In this document: in pieces, positions 27,520 to 48,711 of the stretch | Layout of the letters: every line of letters begins with the position of its first letter | How positions within the stretch are numbered: position 1 is the first letter of the stretch | NCBI RefSeq assembly: GCF_024055725.1 | Contig: NZ_JAMXMX010000015.1 | Span: 62,001 to 126,000 of the forward strand | Direction: 5' to 3' | From: Actinoallomurus spadix | Lineage (GTDB): Bacteria > Actinomycetota > Actinomycetes > Streptosporangiales > Streptosporangiaceae | DNA: 64,000 nt | Program-made: the position numbers and the translations under genes | Notes under the pieces: generated by a model | Databases searched by the model: none | The model's input: only the letters and a program-made list of their open reading frames with translations | What the model was told of the DNA's origin: nothing

Positions 27520-28020
27520 TCATCCCCGGCGCTCGGCCGAGCCCTGCGATGGGGTCGTGGCGACCGGGGCCCACAGGCGATCGGCGTCACCGGCGGCGAG
27601 ACTCCCCCGATAGACGTCGATCTTGTGGTCGATGAGCTCGAGGTTGTCCTGGAGCTCCGCCAGCTTGGCGACCACGTCGGCGCGATGGGCCTCCAGCAGG
27701 GCCAGCCGTTCCGCCTCGTTACCCGGACCGGCCGCGACCAGCTCGGCGTACCGGCGGATGCCCCTGATCGGCATCCCGGTGGCACGCAGCTTCGTGCAGA
27801 TCACGATCCATTTGAGGTCGAGCTCGTGATAGCGGCGGCGGCCGCCGCTCGTACGGCCGACGGGACTGACGACCAGGCCGGCGCGCTCGTAGTACCGGAG
27901 GGTGTGCACGCTGACCCCGGTGCGCCGGGCCGCCTCGGCGATGGGCACGCCGTCGGCGGGCACGGCATAGTGCCCCCGCTTCGGGCCGGCGTGCGCCGGC
28001 TGCCTCTTGACTTCGAGCAC
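27520..28020 (-). CDS. MerR-family transcriptional regulator
   Basis: Regulator of 166 residues. MerR helix-turn-helix: VPIAEAARRTGVSVHTLRYY followed by ERAGLV and the wing GRRRYHELDL; a long dimerisation helix follows (RLALLEAHRADVVAKLAEL). No cysteine metal site is visible, so it likely senses an organic ligand or stress. GTG 28020 falls about 8 bases after a minus-strand TAGGAT box, fitting a leaderless mRNA; internal GTGs at 27963 and 27948 are alternatives. It is divergent from an SDR gene with 24 bases between starts, and its GTG lies inside the presumed operator. Confidence 0.87.
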   Translation of the reverse strand: MLEVKRQPAHAGPKRGHYAVPADGVPIAEAARRTGVSVHTLRYYERAGLVVSPVGRTSGGRRRYHELDLKWIVICTKLRATGMPIRGIRRYAELVAAGPGNEAERLALLEAHRADVVAKLAELQDNLELIDHKIDVYRGSLAAGDADRLWAPVATTPSQGSAERRG

Positions 28021-28037
28021 GCTCTAAATCCTAGCGT
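28007..28037 (+). promoter_or_regulatory. MerR-type promoter with 19-bp spacer before the SDR gene
   Basis: TTGACT (28007-28012) and TAGCGT (28032-28037) are 19 bases apart, the overlong spacing typical of MerR-activated promoters, and the palindrome GAGCACGCTC lies within the spacer. The predicted start of transcription coincides with the SDR ATG at 28045, so the mRNA should be leaderless. Confidence 0.7.
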
Positions 28038-28044
28038 CGCGGCC

Positions 28045-28764
28045 ATGTCCACTCCTGATTCATCCCGAGGCGCCCCCACGATCCTGATCGTCGGAGCCGG
28101 GCGCGGGCTCGGGCACGCCCTGGCGGAACAGTTCTTCGCGAGGGACTGGAACGTCATCGGCACGGTCCGGCCCGGCTCGTCGCGCACCAGGCTCCATGAT
28201 CTGGCCGAGACCGCCGGCGGCCGGGTGGAGATCGAGACCCTCGACATCAACGAGCCGCCGCAGATCACGGCCCTGCGCGACCGCCTGGCGGGCAGGGCTC
28301 TCGACATCCTGTTCGTCAACGCCGGGATCACCACGGCCGAGGAGCACGTCACGATCGGAGAGGTGACGACCGAGGAGTTCACGCGCGTGATGGTCACGAA
28401 CGCGCTGAGTCCGATGCGCGTCATCGAGTCGCTCCAGGACCTGGTCCCGGCCACCGGCCTCATCGGTGCCATGTCGTCCGGGCAGGGCAGCATCGGCAAC
28501 AACGAGACCGGGATGCGGGAGGTCTACCGCGGCAGCAAGGCGGCGCTGAACATGTTCATGCGGAGCTTCGCGGCCCGGCAGCCCGACCCGCCACGAACGA
28601 TGCTGGTCATGGCGCCCGGATGGATCCGCACGGACCTGGGCGGGCCGGACGCGCCGTTCACCATCGAGGAGACCATCCCCCGGCTGGTCGACGTCATGCT
28701 CGCCCAGAAGGGGACCCCCGGCCTGCGGTTCCTCGACCGCTTCGGCCGACCCGTCCCCTGGTGA
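28045..28764 (+). CDS. Short-chain dehydrogenase/reductase
   Basis: NAD(P)-dependent oxidoreductase of 239 residues. Cofactor motif ILIVGAGRGLGHALAEQF (TGxxxGxG type), FVNAGITT (NAG motif), and catalytic serine/tyrosine/lysine in MSSGQGS and YRGSKAALNMF (YxxxK) are present; APGWIRTDLGG is the usual C-terminal anchor. Substrate unknown. Controlled, by position, by the divergent MerR regulator through the 19-bp-spaced promoter; probably leaderless. Confidence 0.9.
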   Translation: MSTPDSSRGAPTILIVGAGRGLGHALAEQFFARDWNVIGTVRPGSSRTRLHDLAETAGGRVEIETLDINEPPQITALRDRLAGRALDILFVNAGITTAEEHVTIGEVTTEEFTRVMVTNALSPMRVIESLQDLVPATGLIGAMSSGQGSIGNNETGMREVYRGSKAALNMFMRSFAARQPDPPRTMLVMAPGWIRTDLGGPDAPFTIEETIPRLVDVMLAQKGTPGLRFLDRFGRPVPW

Positions 28765-30331: not shown

Positions 30332-30534
30332 CGGGGGAACCTCCAGGGAAGGCGTGATGCCGCGATGCGGACGGTGACACCGTAACCACCTATAGTGATC
30401 GAACACAGCCTTCCCGGATGGAGCGGCCGACATCGGCCATCGCCGCCGTACACCCCGCGGCGCGCCCCTCACCTCCGGGCAGCGGAACCACTCCCGGGCA
30501 GCGGGACCGCCGCCGCCCCTCGCGTCGGTCGTGG

Positions 30535-30945: not shown

Positions 30946-31074
30946 CGCCGTCTCCCGTCGTAGAGGACGCGAGTTGGACGGCCGCATACCGGGGTGGGTT
31001 GCCACAAACTCGGGTGGTGGCGACATACGGCCAATCGCGCGCGATACGTAACGCGGGGAACCGGTGAGCGCGCG

Positions 31075-31443
31075 TCAGGCGGTGGCCGAGACGTCGCGGT
31101 AGTACTGGATCTTCCCGCGAAGGTGTTTCCGCTGGGCGAGCAGCGTCTCGATCTGCCGGTCGATGCGCTCGTCGTGCGCCTCGAGGAGGGCGATGCGCTC
31201 ACCGAGCGTCGCGTCGCCGCCCCGGGACAACTCGGCGTAGCGCCGCATCTCCGCGATCGGCATCCCGGTGTCCCGGAGGCAGCGCAGGATGCCGAGGAAG
31301 CCCAGGTCATCGGCGCTGAAACGGCGCCGTCCCGCGGCCGTACGGTCGATCCGGTCGAGCAGGCCGATCTTCTCGTAGTAGCGGAGCGTGTCGATGCTGA
31401 AGCCGGTCTTCTCCGCCGTCTGGGCCGGTGAATAGAACGTCAC
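31075..31443 (-). CDS. MerR-family transcriptional regulator (controls adjacent aldo/keto reductase remnant)
   Basis: Regulator of about 122 residues. The helix-turn-helix is YSPAQTAEKTGFSIDTLRYY with EKIGLL and the wing AAGRRRFSADDL, followed by the dimerisation helix ERIALLEAHDERIDRQIETL. No metal-binding cysteines are seen. GTG 31443 was chosen because a minus-strand promoter with 19-base spacing ends 7-8 bases before it (leaderless geometry); GTG 31458 would add five residues. Its own promoter and the plus-strand promoter of the aldo/keto reductase carry the same operator, yet the target gene is truncated. Confidence 0.87.
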   Translation of the reverse strand: MTFYSPAQTAEKTGFSIDTLRYYEKIGLLDRIDRTAAGRRRFSADDLGFLGILRCLRDTGMPIAEMRRYAELSRGGDATLGERIALLEAHDERIDRQIETLLAQRKHLRGKIQYYRDVSATA

Positions 31444-31450
31444 ATCGTCG

Positions 31451-31533
31451 ATGATCACACCTGGAGCGCGCTCCAGGTCAAGCTCCAGGAGTCGCCACCG
31501 GCTTGACCTGGAGCGCGCTCCAGATCGCAGAGT
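31451..31533. promoter_or_regulatory. Twin MerR-type promoters with a 22-bp inverted-repeat operator
   Basis: 31461-31482 and 31502-31523 are perfect inverted copies containing the palindrome CTGGAGCGCGCTCCAG and TTGACC. Plus strand: TTGACC (31503-31508), 19-base spacer, CAGAGT (31528-31533). Minus strand: TTGACC (31477-31482 region), 19-base spacer, GATCAT (31451-31456). The MerR protein thus likely controls both its own gene and the reductase remnant. Confidence 0.75.
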
Positions 31534-31571
31534 GTGTCGCGTCCCGATCAACCCCACGACAGGACGCGATC

Positions 31572-31900
31572 ATGCGGCAACGGACACTCGCCGACGGAAC
31601 GGCCGTCAGCGCGCTCTGCCTCGGCGCCATGTGGTTCGGCACCCGGACCGACGAGAAGACGGCGTACGCCATCCTCGACCGGTTCGTCGAGACCGGCGGC
31701 ACCCTCATCGACACCGCCGACAACTACGCCTTCTGGGCCGGCGCCGGCGGGGAGAGCGAGACGGTGCTCGGCCGCTGGCTGGCCGACCGTGGCGCGCGCG
31801 ACCAGGTGGTGCTCAGCACCAAAGTGGGCGCGCAGCCGACCGTCCCGGGCACGACCTGGCGGGAGAGCGGCGAGGGACTGTCGGGGCGCGAGCCCGCCGG
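31572..31900 (+). pseudogene. Aldo/keto reductase, 3'-truncated
   Basis: Only the first 105 or so residues of an aldo/keto reductase remain (families normally have about 320). The start (MRQRTLADGTAVSALCLG), the catalytic aspartate/tyrosine region IDTADNYAFW and the lysine region VVLSTKVG are intact, but homology stops at TTWRESGEGLSG near 31887. The open frame then runs to 31991 through the antisense of adnB, giving an arginine-rich nonsense tail. The promoter and MerR regulator upstream are intact. The break lies just outside the adnB stop (31901), so a deletion removed the reductase 3' part without harming adnB. Confidence 0.8.
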
Positions 31901-34900
31901 TCAGGCGGTGGGGATCCGGTCGAGGAGGTCGGCGAGGCCGTCGGCGTCGAGGAGGTCGGCGGGACGGATCGTCCGGTTCGCCGCGACGTAGTGGAACGCG
32001 GCGCTGACCTTCTCGACCGGCACGCCGGCGAGCTGGGCCCAGGCGATGCGGTACGCGGCGAGCTGCACCGCCACGACCCGCGCCTCGTCACCGGCCGGCG
32101 GCCGGCCGGTCTTCCAGTCGACGACCTCGTACCCTCCGTCGCCGGTACGGAAGACCGCGTCCATCCGGCCACGGATCAGCCGGTCGCCGATCATCGTCTC
32201 GAACGGCACCTCGACCTCGTGGGGTTCGCGGTCGGCCCAGGCGCTGCGTTCGAACGCCACCCGCAGCGTGTCCAGCTCGTCGTCGCCTCCGGCGTCCTCG
32301 TCGGAGGCGCCGGGCAGGTCGTCGAGGTCGAGCAGCCGCTGCTGGCCCCAGCGGGACTCCAGCCAGCGGTGGAACGCGGTGCCGCGCCGGGCGTACGGGG
32401 CCGGGGGCCGGGGCAGCGGCCGGCGGATCTGGCGGGCCAGCGCCGCCGGGTCGCGGGCCAGGGTGACCAGGGAGGACACCGACAGGTGGGCGGGCAGGTC
32501 CACCGCCAGGCCGTCGGCGCCGCGGGCGCGGTCGCGTTCGGCCAGGAGCAGCTCCACGTCGCGGGCCCAGGCGGCGGCCCGGCGGCGGTCGCGCGGGGTT
32601 AGCGGGAGGTAGCCGAGCCGGACCCGGCCCTGCATGGCGTCCTCGACCATCCGGGCGCCCTCGGCCACCGCGTCGTACCGTTCGCCCTCGGGCAGGGCCG
32701 GCCAGGACGCGGTGTCCTGCTCGGCGAGCAGCGGGTTCTCCTCGTCCAGGGGCTCGTCGGCCCAGTAGCCGACCTGGCCGGCGCCGGCCTCGCACGCCTC
32801 CCGGATCTCCTCCAGGAACGGCGACGGCCGCAGCGGGCGGCTTGCGGTGCCCCAGCGGTACCCCGTCGTGATCAGCAGGTGGCGGGCCCGGGTGACCGCG
32901 ACGTACGCCAGGCGGCGCTCCTCGCGCAGGTCGCGTTCGGCGGTGGCGGCGTTGAACGCCTCGACGTCGTCCTTCTGCAGGCCGATCAGCGGCGGCAGGT
33001 CCGCGCGGTCGCCGCGCAGCGGGTACGGCAGGACGCGGGCGTTCTCCGTCCAGCGGGAGGAGTTCTGCGGCTTGGCGGGGAAGACCGAGCCGGAGTTCGG
33101 GGTCTCGGTCCTCGTCGGGTTCCACACCAGGCCCGGGATGGCCACGACGTCCCACTCCAGGCCCTTGGCGGCGTGCACGGTCAGCAGCTTGACGCTGTTG
33201 GTCTCCCCGACCCGGCCCGCCTCCAGGCCGAACTCCTCCGTCTCGGCGGCCTTCAGGTAGGCGAGGAACGCGCTCAGCGTCGGGTCCTCCGCGTCGCCCG
33301 CGAAGGACGCCGCCGCGTCGACGAACGCGTCCAGGTCGGCGCGGGCGGTCACCGGGTCCAGGCCCGGCCGGGAGGCGACCTCGATGTCCAGGCCGAGGGT
33401 GCGTTCCACCTCCGTCACCAGGTCGGGCAGCGGCAGGCCGACGTGGCGGCGCAGGACGCGCAGCTCGTCGCGGAGGCGTTCGAGCCGGGCGTACCCCTCC
33501 GGGCTGAAGTTCTCCGCCGGGCCCAGGTCGTCGAGGGCGTCGACGAGGCTGCCGTGCTCGTCGTTCAGCTCCTGGACGACCTGCCGGAGCGGGTCGGCGG
33601 TCGTCGTCTCCGGCTCCTCGAAGGGGTCGGCCGGGTCCGGGTCCGCCGCGGGACCGGCGTCGGGGTGCAGGTCACGCGCTCCCTCGCGGGCGAGTTCGCG
33701 GGCACGGCGGCCGAGGGAGACCAGGTCGCGGGGGCCCAGGCGCCAGCGCGGCCCGGTGAGCAGCCGGGCCAGCGAGGCGCCGGCCGTCGGGTCGTGCACG
33801 ACCCGGAGGGTCGCGACGACGTCCTGCACCTCCGGGACGGTGAGCAGCCCGCCGAGGCCCACCACCTCGACCGGGACGCCGCGCGCCTCCAGCGCCGCCC
33901 GGATCAGCGGGAACTGCGCCCGCTTACGGGCCAGGACGGCGACGTCGGACGGCTGCAGGCCGGGGCCGTGCCGGCTGGTCTTCTCCCACGGCTCCCCGTC
34001 GGGCGCGAGGTCCTTCGGCTGCCGCAGGAGGCCGGCGATGCGGTGGGCGAGCCGCTCGGCCTCGTCCTCGACCGTGTCGAGCAGCGCGCACTCGACCCGC
34101 CCGCGGCCCTGCTGCGCGGCGCCGGGCCACAGCCGGGGGACGTCCTTCGCCTCCTCCCGCAGCTCGCCCTGGATGCGGGCGGCCGCGTCGAGGACGCGTT
34201 CGCCGTTGCGGAAGCTCGTCGACAGCTGCCGCATCGGCGCGGGACGCTCGCCGTGCGGGAAGTCACGGACGAAGCCGAGGAGGTTCCCCGCGCTCGCGCC
34301 CCGCCAGCCGTAGATCGACTGGCACGGGTCGCCGACGGCCGTGACCGGGTGGCCGCCGCCGAACAGCGACTTCAGCAGCACGAGCTGCGCGTGGCTGGTG
34401 TCCTGGTACTCGTCCAGGAGCACGGCGGCATAGCGCGAACGCTCGATCTGGCCGACCTCCGGATGCTCGGCGGCGATCCGCGCGGCGAGCGCCATCTGGT
34501 CGCCGTGGTCGAGGACCTCCCGCCTCGCCTTCGCCCGCTGGTACGCCTCGACCAGCGGCAGCAGCTGCTCGCGCGTCGCCTGGGCGTCGGTGACGCGGCC
34601 CTGATGCTTCTTGGTGGGCTTCTTGACCTCCGCGACCCGCTCGCGCAGCCAGGCGCCGACCCTGCGCACGTCCTCGGGGGTGCGCAGGTGCTCCGCCAGC
34701 TCCCCCGACAGCCCGATCACGGCCTTCGTTACGGTGTCGGGTCCCCAGTCGACGGCGTCCATCGGCCCGTCGTACGCGTCGACGACCCGCGCCGCGATCT
34801 GCCAGGCCACCGCCGGGGTGACCAGCCGCATCGTCGGCTCCAGCGCCGCCCGCAGCGCGTGGTCCCCGAAGAGCCGCGCGGCGTACGCGTGGTACGTCGA

Positions 34901-35215
34901 GACCGTCGGCTCACCGTCGAGGATCTCCGGGTCGATGAGGTCGTCGTGCTCACGGAGCTGGTCGAGCCGCCGGCGTACGCGCTCGGCCAGCTCGGCCGCG
35001 GCCTTGCGGGTGAACGTCAGGCCCAGCACCCGCTCGGGCCGGATCAGGCCGTTCGCGACCAGCCACACGACGCGGGCCGCCATCGTCTCGCTCTTGCCGG
35101 ACCCCGCCCCCGCGATGACCGCCATCGGCGCGAGCGGCGCCTCGATCACGGCGGCCTGGTCCGGCGTCGGCTCAGGAACCCCGAGCCGCTGCGCCAGCTC
35201 CTGCGGACTGATCAC
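31901..35215 (-). CDS. adnB: Helicase-nuclease AdnB (UvrD-like motor with RecB-like nuclease)
   Basis: Large subunit of 1104 residues of the actinobacterial AdnAB machine that resects double-strand ends. Superfamily 1 motifs: Walker A IAGAGSGKSETMA near residue 35, VLGLTFTRKAA, LLDEYQDTSHAQ, GDPCQSIYGWRGA, VKLLTVHAAKGLEWD and YVAVTRARHLL. The C-terminal PD-(D/E)XK nuclease reads GRMDAVF and EVVDWKTGRPP. No iron-sulfur cysteine cluster, unlike its partner. GTG 35215 with GAGGGG 6 bases upstream. It follows adnA after 51 bases in the same operon. The gene is complete although its 3' neighbour is truncated. Confidence 0.93.
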   Translation of the reverse strand: MISPQELAQRLGVPEPTPDQAAVIEAPLAPMAVIAGAGSGKSETMAARVVWLVANGLIRPERVLGLTFTRKAAAELAERVRRRLDQLREHDDLIDPEILDGEPTVSTYHAYAARLFGDHALRAALEPTMRLVTPAVAWQIAARVVDAYDGPMDAVDWGPDTVTKAVIGLSGELAEHLRTPEDVRRVGAWLRERVAEVKKPTKKHQGRVTDAQATREQLLPLVEAYQRAKARREVLDHGDQMALAARIAAEHPEVGQIERSRYAAVLLDEYQDTSHAQLVLLKSLFGGGHPVTAVGDPCQSIYGWRGASAGNLLGFVRDFPHGERPAPMRQLSTSFRNGERVLDAAARIQGELREEAKDVPRLWPGAAQQGRGRVECALLDTVEDEAERLAHRIAGLLRQPKDLAPDGEPWEKTSRHGPGLQPSDVAVLARKRAQFPLIRAALEARGVPVEVVGLGGLLTVPEVQDVVATLRVVHDPTAGASLARLLTGPRWRLGPRDLVSLGRRARELAREGARDLHPDAGPAADPDPADPFEEPETTTADPLRQVVQELNDEHGSLVDALDDLGPAENFSPEGYARLERLRDELRVLRRHVGLPLPDLVTEVERTLGLDIEVASRPGLDPVTARADLDAFVDAAASFAGDAEDPTLSAFLAYLKAAETEEFGLEAGRVGETNSVKLLTVHAAKGLEWDVVAIPGLVWNPTRTETPNSGSVFPAKPQNSSRWTENARVLPYPLRGDRADLPPLIGLQKDDVEAFNAATAERDLREERRLAYVAVTRARHLLITTGYRWGTASRPLRPSPFLEEIREACEAGAGQVGYWADEPLDEENPLLAEQDTASWPALPEGERYDAVAEGARMVEDAMQGRVRLGYLPLTPRDRRRAAAWARDVELLLAERDRARGADGLAVDLPAHLSVSSLVTLARDPAALARQIRRPLPRPPAPYARRGTAFHRWLESRWGQQRLLDLDDLPGASDEDAGGDDELDTLRVAFERSAWADREPHEVEVPFETMIGDRLIRGRMDAVFRTGDGGYEVVDWKTGRPPAGDEARVVAVQLAAYRIAWAQLAGVPVEKVSAAFHYVAANRTIRPADLLDADGLADLLDRIPTA

Positions 35216-35266: not shown

Positions 35267-38200
35267 TCACGGCGCCACCTGGCCGCCATCGTCATGTGCC
35301 GGGCAGGACCCGCGTACGGGGCAGGTCCGGCAGTGGTTGTCGTCGCGGCGCGCCTCGAACACCGGGCTCGCCATGCCCTCGGCGACGCGGTCGACGAGTC
35401 TACGCGGCCACTGCGGATCCTCGTCCGCCGACGGAGGCGGCTGCGTCTGGACGCGCACCCGCGCGGTCAGGGACGCCTTGCCGACCTGGATGAGCTCCGC
35501 GCCGCCCGGCTCGATCAGGCCCTTGTCGGCGAACGCGCCCAGCATCACGGCGAGCTGGTACACGCCGAGCTGCGGGTGGCGGGCGAGATCCTCGTCGGGC
35601 ACCTTGGTGCCGGAGGTCTTGATGTCGACGATCCAGGCGCGGCCGTCGTCGTCGCGCTCCGCGCGGTCGATCCGGCCGCGGATCGTGACCCGGCCCAGAT
35701 CGATGCTGAACGGCTCCTCGATCGACACCAGCTCGCGGGCGTCGGCGCGCCGGTGCCAGTCCAGGAACTTCTCGATCATCCCCTGGGCCTGTTCGCGCTG
35801 CTTGTCGGAGTACCAGGCGCTGCGGAAGTCCAGGTCGTCCCAGATCTCGTCGAGCCGCTTGTCGATGTCGGCGTCGCTCACGCCCTCGTCGGTGGCGACG
35901 AGCTCGGCCACCGCGTGGATGACCCGGCCCATCGTCGCGAACTCCCCCGCGCCGCCGTCCTCCGCGCCGACGCAGGAGGCCAGCAGCCAGCGCAGCCCGC
36001 ACTTCTCGAACGTCTCGACCTGGGACGGCGACAGCACCAGCGTCTCGTCCTCCCGGAACGCCGGTCCGGGGTCGGACAGCTCCGTCAGGGGGTACCAGTC
36101 GCGCGGGTCGGCGCCCTGGACCCCGGCGCGGGCGAGCCGGGCCAGGTGCCCGGCCGCGGCCCGGCGCAGCGGCACGGGGGTCTTCGGGTCGGCGACGGCC
36201 GAGCGCAGGTCGGCGACGAGGGCGCGCAGGGACAGCCACCGGGTCCGCTCGTCGAGCTGGGCGTGCTCGGCCTCGTCGGGGACCAGCTCGCGCAGGAACC
36301 GCGACGGCCGGTCCTCGGCGTCCTCCCCGCCGACCGCGGTCACGACGAGCCGCTTCCTGGCCCGCGTCACGGCGACGTAGAACAGCCGCCGCTCCTCCTC
36401 CAGCATCTTCGCCGCCAGCGACGCGCCTGCCTCCACCCCGGTGGCTCCGCCCCACCGCCCCCCCTTATCGAGGTCGACGACGCCGGTCGCGGCCTCGATC
36501 AGCTCCTCGCTGCCCAGCAGCGAGCCACGCAGCCGCAGGTCGGGCCAGAGGCCCTCCTGCACGCCCGCGACGACGACCAGGTCCCATTCAAGGCCCTTGG
36601 ACCGGTGCGCGGTGAGGATCCGCACCGCCTCCCCCTGCGGCGCCTGCTCGGCGAGGGTGTCACCGGGGATCTCCTGCGAGGCCAGGTCGTCCAGGAACAC
36701 CTCCGGGCCCGCCTGCGGCAGCCGGTCGGTGAACCGCGCCGCCATGTCGAACAGCGCGACGACCGCGTCGAGGTCCCGGTCGGCCGCCGCGCCCCGGGCC
36801 CCGCCGCGGACGCTCTGCTCCAGGAGCCGGTCGGCCAGACCACTTTCCTGCCACACCGCCCACAGGACCTCCTCGGCCCCGCCACCACCCTGGACGGTCT
36901 CCCGCGCCAGGGCGATCAGCCTGGCGACGCGCTCCGCCGGTTCGCGGACCTTCGGGTGGATCAGCACCAGCTCACGCGGGTCGTTCAGCGCCCGTACGAG
37001 CAGTCCCTCGCCCTTCTCGTCCCCCGACAGCGTCGCCAGGTCGCGCAGCGCGCGGCGGAGCCGGCGCAGGCCGAGGGCGTCCGCGCCGCCCAGCGGGCCC
37101 AGCACGAGCTCCTCGGCGGCCTCCTCGTCGAGCAGGGCGGGCCGCAGCGCCGCCCGCAGCAGCACGATGAACGGCCGGGCGCCCGGCTCGTTCACCAGCG
37201 GCACCTCGTCACCCGCCACGACCACGGGCACGCCCGCGGCGGCCAGCGCGCGGCGCAGCGGCGGCACCTGCCGCACCGCGGACCGTACGAGCACCGCCAT
37301 CCGCGACCAGGGGACGTTCTCCAGCAGATGGGCGCGGCGCAGCTCGTCGGCGACCAGCGCGGCCTCCTGGTTCGCGCTGTCGGCCTCGACGACCCGGACC
37401 GCCCGCGCGTCCGCGCCGTCGTCGTCGGCCGCCTCCACCGGCAGCAGCTCCCGATGCCGCCCCGCCAGCGCGCCGAGCGGCAGCCGGGCCGCGACCCGGC
37501 GGGACGCCTCCAGGATCACCGGGCCCATCCGCCGGCACGTCCGCAGTGAGACGATCGGCGCCTCCTCGCCCGTCACCGTACGGAACCGCTCGGGGAACTC
37601 CAGGATCCCGCGCACGTCCGCGCCCCGGAACCCGTAGATCGACTGGTCCGGATCACCCACGACGATCAGGTCCCGCCCGCCCCCGGCCAGCTGCTGGAGG
37701 AGGTACTCCTGGGCGGGGTCGGTGTCCTGGTACTCGTCGACCAGCACGACGTCGTACGCGGCGCGCTCCCGCCGTCGTACGTCCTCGTCCGTGAGCAGCC
37801 CGGCGGCGGCCCGGATCAGCTCCGCGTAGTCATAGGCGACGATCGGATCGACGTCGAAGCGCTGTTCGTACCGGTCCAGGAACCGTCCGGCGGCGTACCA
37901 GTCGTCCCGGTGGTGCCCGCGGCCCAGCGTCACCAGGTCATCGGGCCCGAGACCGCGCTCGACGGCCCGCAGGATGAAGTCCCGCAGCTCCTCGGCGAAC
38001 CCCCGCGTCTTCAACGTCTCGTGCAGCCGCGACGGCCAGTCCCGCGCGCCGTCCGCGACCTCACCGTGGACCAGCCGGCGGACCTCCAGGAGGTGCTCCG
38101 GGCCCGACAGCAGCCGCGGCGGCTCCTCGCCGTCCAGGACCGCCTCGCGGCGCAGCAGCGCGTACGCGTACGAGTGGAACGTCAGGGCCAGCGGCGTCCG

Positions 38201-38482
38201 GGTGGTACGCCGCAGCCGGCCGGTGATGCGCTGCCGCAACTCCCCCGCGGCCTTCCGGCCGAACGTCAGGACCAGCACCCGCTCCGGGTCGACACCGCGG
38301 TTCTCGATCCGGTCCACGACCGTCTCGGCGATCGTCGTCGTCTTGCCCGTCCCCGGCCCGGCCAGCACGAGCAGCGGCCCGCCCGCGTGCGCGACGACCC
38401 GCCGCTGGTGCTCGTCGAGCACCGGCGGCGGCGCCTGGGCGGAACCGGCGCGCCGGACGAGACGGTAGGACGCTGATGACAC
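35267..38482 (-). CDS. adnA: Helicase-nuclease AdnA (UvrD-like with Fe-S nuclease)
   Basis: Partner subunit of 1071 residues. N-terminal Walker A LLVLAGPGTGKTTTIAE, VLVLTFGRKAAGELR, VDEYQDTDPAQE, GDPDQSIYGFRGADVRGI and LTAHRSKGLEWDLVVV give a UvrD-like motor; the C-terminus has a RecB-type nuclease (GRIDRAE, WIVDIKTSG). Cysteines in FEKCGLRWLL and in CRTCPVRGSC fit the 4Fe-4S staple of AddB/AdnA-type nucleases. Together with AdnB it forms the heterodimer that in mycobacteria drives end resection and recombination. GTG start at 38482. The neighbouring rhomboid-like gene is divergent with a 144-base gap. Confidence 0.93.
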   Translation of the reverse strand: MSSASYRLVRRAGSAQAPPPVLDEHQRRVVAHAGGPLLVLAGPGTGKTTTIAETVVDRIENRGVDPERVLVLTFGRKAAGELRQRITGRLRRTTRTPLALTFHSYAYALLRREAVLDGEEPPRLLSGPEHLLEVRRLVHGEVADGARDWPSRLHETLKTRGFAEELRDFILRAVERGLGPDDLVTLGRGHHRDDWYAAGRFLDRYEQRFDVDPIVAYDYAELIRAAAGLLTDEDVRRRERAAYDVVLVDEYQDTDPAQEYLLQQLAGGGRDLIVVGDPDQSIYGFRGADVRGILEFPERFRTVTGEEAPIVSLRTCRRMGPVILEASRRVAARLPLGALAGRHRELLPVEAADDDGADARAVRVVEADSANQEAALVADELRRAHLLENVPWSRMAVLVRSAVRQVPPLRRALAAAGVPVVVAGDEVPLVNEPGARPFIVLLRAALRPALLDEEAAEELVLGPLGGADALGLRRLRRALRDLATLSGDEKGEGLLVRALNDPRELVLIHPKVREPAERVARLIALARETVQGGGGAEEVLWAVWQESGLADRLLEQSVRGGARGAAADRDLDAVVALFDMAARFTDRLPQAGPEVFLDDLASQEIPGDTLAEQAPQGEAVRILTAHRSKGLEWDLVVVAGVQEGLWPDLRLRGSLLGSEELIEAATGVVDLDKGGRWGGATGVEAGASLAAKMLEEERRLFYVAVTRARKRLVVTAVGGEDAEDRPSRFLRELVPDEAEHAQLDERTRWLSLRALVADLRSAVADPKTPVPLRRAAAGHLARLARAGVQGADPRDWYPLTELSDPGPAFREDETLVLSPSQVETFEKCGLRWLLASCVGAEDGGAGEFATMGRVIHAVAELVATDEGVSDADIDKRLDEIWDDLDFRSAWYSDKQREQAQGMIEKFLDWHRRADARELVSIEEPFSIDLGRVTIRGRIDRAERDDDGRAWIVDIKTSGTKVPDEDLARHPQLGVYQLAVMLGAFADKGLIEPGGAELIQVGKASLTARVRVQTQPPPSADEDPQWPRRLVDRVAEGMASPVFEARRDDNHCRTCPVRGSCPAHDDGGQVAP

Positions 38483-47736: not shown

Positions 47737-48711
47737 TCAGGCGGTCTTGCGGGCGCCGCTCTTCGTCTTGGCCTTGGTGTCCGTGGTCTTCTTCGTGGCG
47801 GCGGTCTTCGCCTCGGGCTTGCCGCCACCGCGGCCGCCCGTGCCCCGGCCGCCCTTCGCCGCGCCGTCCTTGTGGGCCCGGGTGCCGTCCTTCGCGGAGC
47901 CGGCGGCCTTGCGGGTCTCCCCGTCGCCGCGTTCCGTACGGCCCTTCTTGGCCGCCTCGACGCTCGCCCGCAGCGCGCTGAGCAGGTCGGCGCCGGCCGG
48001 GGCCTCCTCGGCCGCCTCCGGCGTGACGACCTCCCGGCCCTCGACCTTGGCCTGGATGACCGCCTCCAGTGCCTCGCGGTACTCGTCCTTGTACTCGCCC
48101 GGGTCGAAGTCGCCCGTCATCGTGTCGATGAGCGAGGACGCCATCTGCAGCTCCTGGGGGCGGACGTCGACGTCCTCGTCCATGAACGGGAAGTCCGCCT
48201 CGCGCACCTCGTCCGGCCACAGCATCGTCTCGAGGACGAACACGCCGTCCCGTACGCGCAGGGTCCCGAGCGACTCGCGCTGCCGGAGCGCGACCTTGAC
48301 CACGGCGACCTTGTCAGAGTCCTCGAGGGCGTCGCGCAGCAGGACGTACGGCTTGACGCCCTGGGCGTCCGGTTCGAGGTAGTAGGTCTTGGCGAAGTAG
48401 ATCGGGTCGACCTGGTCCTCCGGCGTGAACTGCAGGACGTCGATGCGGCGGCTGGTCGACAGCGGCAGGTCGGCGAAGTCCTCGTCGGTGAGGACGACCG
48501 TGTCCCCGGTCGGCAGTTCGTACCCCTTGGCGATGTCGGAGTACGGCACCTCCTCGCCGTCGACGGTGCAGACGCGCTTGTACTTGATCCGGCCGCCGTC
48601 CTCACGGTGGACCTGATGGAACGCCACGTCACGCTGCTCGGTGGCGGAGTAGAGCTTCACCGGGATCGTGACGAGCCCGAACGAGATCGCGCCCTTCCAG
48701 ATGCTGCGCAT
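47737..48711 (-). CDS. ku: Non-homologous end-joining protein Ku
   Basis: Ring-forming DNA end-binding protein of 324 residues, a homodimer that loads on double-strand breaks and recruits the ligase/polymerase. The core begins MRSIWKGAISFGLVTIPVKL and includes RIKYKRVC, YELPTGDTVVLTDEDFADL, FAKTYYLEPD and VLLRDALEDS, as in bacterial Ku. From about residue 245 a long basic tail (KKGRTERG, KTAATKKTTDTKAKTKSG) extends the protein, as found in actinomycete Ku proteins and thought to modulate DNA threading. Divergent from the LigD-type ligase gene, 208 bases away, so both sides may share control. Confidence 0.94.
   Translation of the reverse strand: MRSIWKGAISFGLVTIPVKLYSATEQRDVAFHQVHREDGGRIKYKRVCTVDGEEVPYSDIAKGYELPTGDTVVLTDEDFADLPLSTSRRIDVLQFTPEDQVDPIYFAKTYYLEPDAQGVKPYVLLRDALEDSDKVAVVKVALRQRESLGTLRVRDGVFVLETMLWPDEVREADFPFMDEDVDVRPQELQMASSLIDTMTGDFDPGEYKDEYREALEAVIQAKVEGREVVTPEAAEEAPAGADLLSALRASVEAAKKGRTERGDGETRKAAGSAKDGTRAHKDGAAKGGRGTGGRGGGKPEAKTAATKKTTDTKAKTKSGARKTA

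Follow-up and report, generated by a model that had tools for sequence, protein, structure and literature searches.

Organization of the locus

The window, a stretch of 64,000 nucleotides from Actinoallomurus spadix, comprises bases 62001–126000 of the 180,987-base contig C6 in a genome assembly (G000) of 8.0 Mb and 71 contigs with a completeness of 98.3%. A gene for a MerR-family regulator and a frame encoding part of an aldo/keto reductase (AKR) are divergently oriented, and the AKR frame converges with the downstream member of two helicase-nuclease genes that we take to be adnA and adnB (Table 1). The NCBIfam matches listed for the adnA- and adnB-like proteins were all below cut-offs. Eight Actinoallomurus genomes including that of the window were compared, and the MerR/AKR pair beside adnB was traced in three of these: the window, the congener G001, and Actinoallomurus purpureus (G007).

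Table 1. Features of the merR/AKR/adnB region, numbered from the first base of the window.
Feature	Position	Strand	Remarks
AKR frame, 5' remnant part	31572–31882	+	approximately 104 native codons; by homology to intact orthologues and Pfam
Stretch from last AKR-like base to adnB stop	31883–31900	+	18 bp; deletion junction in or beside it
Readthrough tail of the truncated AKR frame	31901–31991	+	antisense to the adnB 3' end; stop codon at 31989–31991
AKR-promoter operator 21-mer (candidate)	31503–31523	+	-35 TTGACC; 19-bp spacer with palindrome CTGGAGCGCGCTCCAG; -10-like CAGAGT at 31528–31533
merR-promoter operator 21-mer (candidate)	31461–31481	-	identical in sequence to the AKR-side 21-mer, opposite strand; 19-bp spacer
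MerR-family regulator, intact	31075–31443	-	putative GTG start at 31443; a longer frame opens at 31557
adnB-like UvrD helicase/PDDEXK nuclease, intact	31901–35215	-	convergent with the AKR frame; by Pfam and congener alignment
adnA-like UvrD helicase/PDDEXK nuclease	35267–38482	-	upstream of adnB; by Pfam

Truncation of the AKR gene

The AKR frame (31572–31991) consists of 139 codons plus a stop. Its only Pfam match was to Aldo_ket_red (PF00248), with frame residues 15–90 covering profile positions 2–78 of 291, and it thus lacks the complete (beta/alpha)8 barrel, or full PF00248 profile, of a functional AKR. AKRs carry a catalytic Asp-Tyr-Lys-His set, which is incomplete here: by eye, the remnant has DTADNY and STKVG and ends before the YWAH of its orthologues. 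By homology it represents the early barrel segments, while the C-terminal two thirds are gone entirely, as is the YWAH segment; the final approximately 35 codons of the frame are unmatched bases and adnB antisense. The sequence-only reading had the reductase stop after about a third of its length exactly where adnB begins. The length was right, since approximately 104 native codons stand against 324 in G001 and 326 in G007, but 31901 is the end of adnB and not its beginning. A natural subfamily of short AKRs ending at this position was not seen among the matches listed, where every frame other than that of the window is open for at least 256 aa (the 44-gene operator set described below is uninformative on short AKRs, because entry required at least 250 aa and at least 42% identity).

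In both G001 and G007, merR, AKR, and adnB occur in the order and orientation of the window, and the AKR gene is full-length (324 and 326 aa, respectively). The end of the reductase had been read as a deletion junction, to be checked against full-length homologues in relatives; this comparison returned intact orthologues at the syntenic place in both congeners, as expected for a pseudogene formed by deletion, and it is on these that we base the inference of a deletion. Alignment of the window to the intact orthologues fails at approximately 31882, and similarity on the adnB side resumes at approximately 31899. BLAST alignments ended at 31883 against G007 and at 31909 against G001, the latter being read as a chance extension. 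Approximately 16 bp (31883–31898) have no clear match in either congener, although a short GGCGCG is reminiscent of intergenic sequence in G001. According to the alignment coordinates, the last AKR-like base and the adnB stop are separated by 18 bp in the window, whereas the corresponding blocks measure 671 bp in G001 and 819 bp in G007. A deletion of approximately 0.65–0.8 kb has therefore almost certainly removed the AKR codons from about 105 to the end.

An assembly artefact, namely a misjoin dropping approximately 0.65 kb, is very improbable. The junction sequence (31822–31962, 141 bases) matched the genome over its full length only once, and seven further hits covered 33–49 bp at 80–88% identity; the single full-length match makes a repeat-driven misassembly unlikely. 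The junction lies far inside the 181-kb contig, and adnB is complete immediately past it, with residues 1–1104 aligning in G001 and G007. In addition, the missing part was found nowhere else in the assembly: a search of the window's own genome with the C-terminal 218 residues of the G001 AKR gave a best match of 44%, which is the AKR on contig C18, itself a complete gene, and a relocated C-terminal part was accordingly dismissed. Ku is encoded at C6:110142–110684 (window 48142–48684), 16 kb from the deletion on the same contig, so that end joining would be a possible route. Small deletions commonly disrupt one member of a regulator-target pair, and we regard the AKR locus, as far as can be read from its sequence, as a real and clean deletion pseudogene that is ordinary as an event.

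Length differences were also observed elsewhere on this flank. G001 is approximately 0.5 kb longer between the EF-hand and DUF3761 genes (window 30451–30511 versus L028 5699–6275), and G007 is approximately 4.8 kb longer between DUF3761 and merR (window 31053–31094 versus L029 2050–6861). These differences indicate that the region next to adnB is variable within this clade.

Compared with G001, dN/dS values were nearly equal for the remnant (0.174), merR (0.181), and adnB (0.176). Nine substitutions were placed on the window branch of the remnant, six of them synonymous and three non-synonymous, and three more were unplaceable. Two codons present in all four relatives compared (G001, G007, and two Actinomadura loci) are missing from the remnant, a difference that could be early decay. 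The changes on the window branch are too few to date the event. That the deletion is recent, as had been claimed, is plausible and compatible with the open frame and a dN/dS value equal to that of adnB, but nine placed substitutions and two missing codons leave it unproven.

Transcription towards adnB

With the AKR promoter intact, transcription had been predicted to run antisense into the adnB 3' end. The geometry agrees with this prediction; as a consequence of the deletion, however, it does not hold, since in G001, where the AKR is intact, its stop codon lies just 13 bp from that of the convergent adnB gene (155 bp in G007). No terminator-like site was detected in the stretches of the window, G001, and G007 that were scanned, by a scan that depends on a T-run and performs poorly on GC-rich sequence. 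Given the short gap in G001 and the lack of a terminator in these stretches, transcripts starting at the AKR promoter probably reached adnB before the deletion, which would only have shortened the distance to the promoter. An intact promoter aimed into adnB and a frame open to 31991 would also suit a functional short protein of 139 codons or a regulatory antisense RNA against adnB. We consider either highly unlikely: the sole Pfam match is a partial AKR domain, most of the AKR fold is gone, and the convergence already present in G001 needs no new role.

A candidate operator in the divergent promoters

The MerR regulator and the twin promoters had been described as undamaged, and both descriptions were borne out. 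The protein matches Pfam MerR_1 and MerR-DNA-bind, with PF13411, PF00376, and PF09278 all above cut-off and the N-terminal MerR winged helix-turn-helix present, and aligns with both congeners. The promoters are two divergent TTGACC-N19 copies with an identical 16-bp palindrome. On the merR side, the palindrome is perfect in the window and has one mismatch in G001 and two in G007.

The candidate MerR-type operator, the 21-mer TTGACCTGGAGCGCGCTCCAG, was searched in G000 with the middle four bases free. Exactly three copies occur in the 8.0-Mb assembly and none at one or two mismatches; another 25 sites were found at three mismatches, giving 28 in all versus 53 for a reversed control pattern. The 16-bp palindrome CTGGAGCGCGCTCCAG likewise has exactly three genome copies, two of which are those in the merR/AKR divergent promoters. 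The three operator sites have the form TTGACC-N19-(CAGAGT, GATCAT, GAGGCT), placing the palindrome in a 19-bp spacer, within the 19–20 bp expected of MerR promoters; the -10 elements match the consensus poorly and were positioned from the spacing, and the figure of 19 bp partly depends on the -10 chosen. A sigma-70 scan with spacers of 16–18 bp returned no promoter in 31000–32400. An operator within an over-long promoter spacer is given as a hallmark of MerR regulators in a section of PMC9909328, and an over-long spacer with the operator inside is used as a criterion in a passage of PMC5045206. In literature searches with operator text, matches were listed only to the shortest string, with mostly mammalian or virological titles, and we make no claim that the operator is absent from print.

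Palindromes with one mismatch on contigs C22 and C55 were rejected as MerR targets; they lie in ORF-covered stretches and have three to six mismatches to the 21-mer. Other MerR proteins of G000 are at most 44% identical to this regulator (44% for a second MerR in the window at 27520–28020, 44% for one on C69, and 38% for one on C16). Those on C69 and C16 were discarded as readers of the operator, their best site within 250 bp upstream having 9–10 mismatches, as was the second window MerR, which faces a related but different site. A distantly related regulator may read the operator.

The second MerR gene of the window is divergent from a gene for a short-chain dehydrogenase (SDR, by Pfam) at 27520–28764. 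This pair takes up approximately 2 kb, and the flanking blocks are only approximately 270 bp apart in G001, which looks like a gain in the window or a loss in G001. The start of the SDR gene carries the related site TTGACTTCGAGCACGCTC. In A. purpureus, contig C22 (L151 6151–7632) encodes a second MerR (40%) and a second AKR (36%), each preceded by a similar palindrome with two and one mismatches, respectively.

An unlinked AKR gene behind the third operator copy

The third exact operator precedes an intact AKR gene of 312 aa on contig C18, with the 19-bp spacing of the window promoters. The C18 AKR shares 63% identity with the remnant over 81 residues and 48% with the G001 AKR. No match to the window MerR was obtained in the first 20 kb of C18 (tblastn, E ≤ 1e-8). 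The contig starts 4.8 kb upstream of the AKR gene, and a MerR gene farther upstream is addressed by the whole-genome MerR search alone. By eye, the cluster (L148 2861–5803) comprises an XRE-type regulator, an SDR, and the operator-bearing AKR, which may be read from the promoter of the preceding SDR-like gene on the same strand. Among the matches listed for the seven congeners, no counterpart of the C18 AKR exceeded 48% identity, and across 200 sampled family genomes, the window's own and the congeners included, matches at E 1e-70 or better reached no more than 52%. As no close counterpart occurs in the congeners or the family sample, the C18 AKR may have been acquired. This unlinked third site goes beyond the sequence-only reading: because the C18 AKR follows the one exact operator copy outside the window, that gene is the likely remaining target of the surviving MerR, which probably acts on it in trans, as a new or a retained regulator.

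Distribution of the operator among AKR and MerR homologues

AKR homologues were collected if they aligned to the G001 AKR over at least 250 aa with an identity of 42% or more, yielding 45 distinct genes, one of which had its upstream DNA cut off (n = 44). With up to four mismatches to the window 21-mer allowed, searching from 200 bp upstream, the operator was present at 31 of the 44 genes and at none of 880 base-shuffled controls. Its absence from the other 13 counts against regulation in trans; at one of these loci (L012), an exact palindrome instead precedes a MerR gene co-oriented with the AKR. A divergent MerR gene was found within 1.6 kb of 16 of the 31 operator-bearing AKR genes. The remaining 15, including the C18 gene, had no MerR gene in the approximately 1.5 kb examined on the upstream side.

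Apart from the C18 gene, these AKRs come from 14 genomes, seven of which belong to one genus (g48), and are therefore not independent. Ten of the 14 genomes encode a MerR of this type elsewhere (E ≤ 1e-35); none was found in the other four, which again counts against a trans role. Nine of the ten MerR genes carry the operator (up to four mismatches) within their own 250 bp upstream, the tenth being without it, and for eight of these nine the locus of approximately 3.3 kb contains no AKR, seven of the eight being in genus g48. By these sequence searches, unlinked MerR and AKR genes with a putative common operator recur in the family; independent cases are few and mostly from one genus.

Proposed fate of the regulator

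Taken together, we propose that this Actinoallomurus lineage ancestrally carried a divergent merR/AKR pair convergent to adnB, and that a deletion in the window lineage took the AKR codons from about 105 to the end and spared adnB. The AKR would now be a remnant, presumably inactive with two thirds of its barrel missing. MerR, the merR promoter, and the AKR promoter were left intact. From knowledge of the family and the anatomy of the promoters, MerR very probably still works, and would bind the palindrome that the 19-bp spacer contains, untwisting the promoter on a signal. It would then have become, or stayed, a trans regulator of the unlinked C18 AKR. We assign a probability of about 0.65 to this explanation as a whole, with the AKR deleted and an intact MerR acting in trans on the C18 AKR.

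Alternatively, with the junction equally real, MerR could be a leftover without a useful target, the deletion being young and the C18 operator vestigial or belonging to another regulator. The equal constraint on remnant, merR, and adnB compared with G001, as if time had been too short, and the four of 14 family genomes that have an operator-bearing AKR and no close MerR are consistent with such a course. We nevertheless consider it rather unlikely, given three exact 21-mers with nothing at one or two mismatches, a merR-side palindrome that is perfect in the window and imperfect in both congeners, and the absence from G000 of any other MerR above 44% identity. A trans role on the C18 AKR thus remains our preferred reading. 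As a tentative extension, held at well under even odds, a hand-over may have taken place: the species gained, or alone kept, a C18 AKR with the operator of the resident MerR, the linked AKR became dispensable and was deleted, and MerR was kept in trans.

The locus represents ordinary gene decay with a modest regulatory twist, the hand-over being one modest new lead. The case is unusually clean, as the ancestral state is present in two congeners and the candidate regulator sites reduce to three exact ones. With it one can ask whether service to an unlinked paralogue lets a MerR regulator persist after the loss of its linked target; the common MerR/AKR operator provides a signature that is traceable through related genera.

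Comparison with known systems

The adnA- and adnB-like genes resemble those of the AdnAB helicase-nuclease in being an adjacent UvrD-type helicase pair with a PDDEXK domain in each protein, with no notable difference. The divergent merR/AKR pair with an AKR-side operator in a 19-bp spacer occurs in G001, G007, Actinomadura alba (L031), and Actinomadura sp. (L032). The AKRs of the latter three are 77–84% identical to the G001 AKR, and the MerR proteins of all four are 69–92% identical to that of the window. The AKR comprises 324–326 aa in the congeners, with 321 residues covered in the Actinomadura loci, compared to approximately 104 codons in the window. In the Actinomadura loci, DNA similarity to the window ends at 31882 and no adnB match follows.

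Among named MerR regulators, the window protein is most like those of the NmlR/AdhR type, which act in formaldehyde and carbonyl stress. NmlR is its best NCBIfam match, at 93.1 bits and thus far under the equivalog cut-off of 175, so that the protein is not assigned to NmlR itself, and it shares with this type an operator in an over-long 19-bp spacer. The two differ in their linked genes: the window MerR is linked to an AKR, whereas NmlR of H. influenzae is linked to adhC/estD, as described in a section of PMC9909328.
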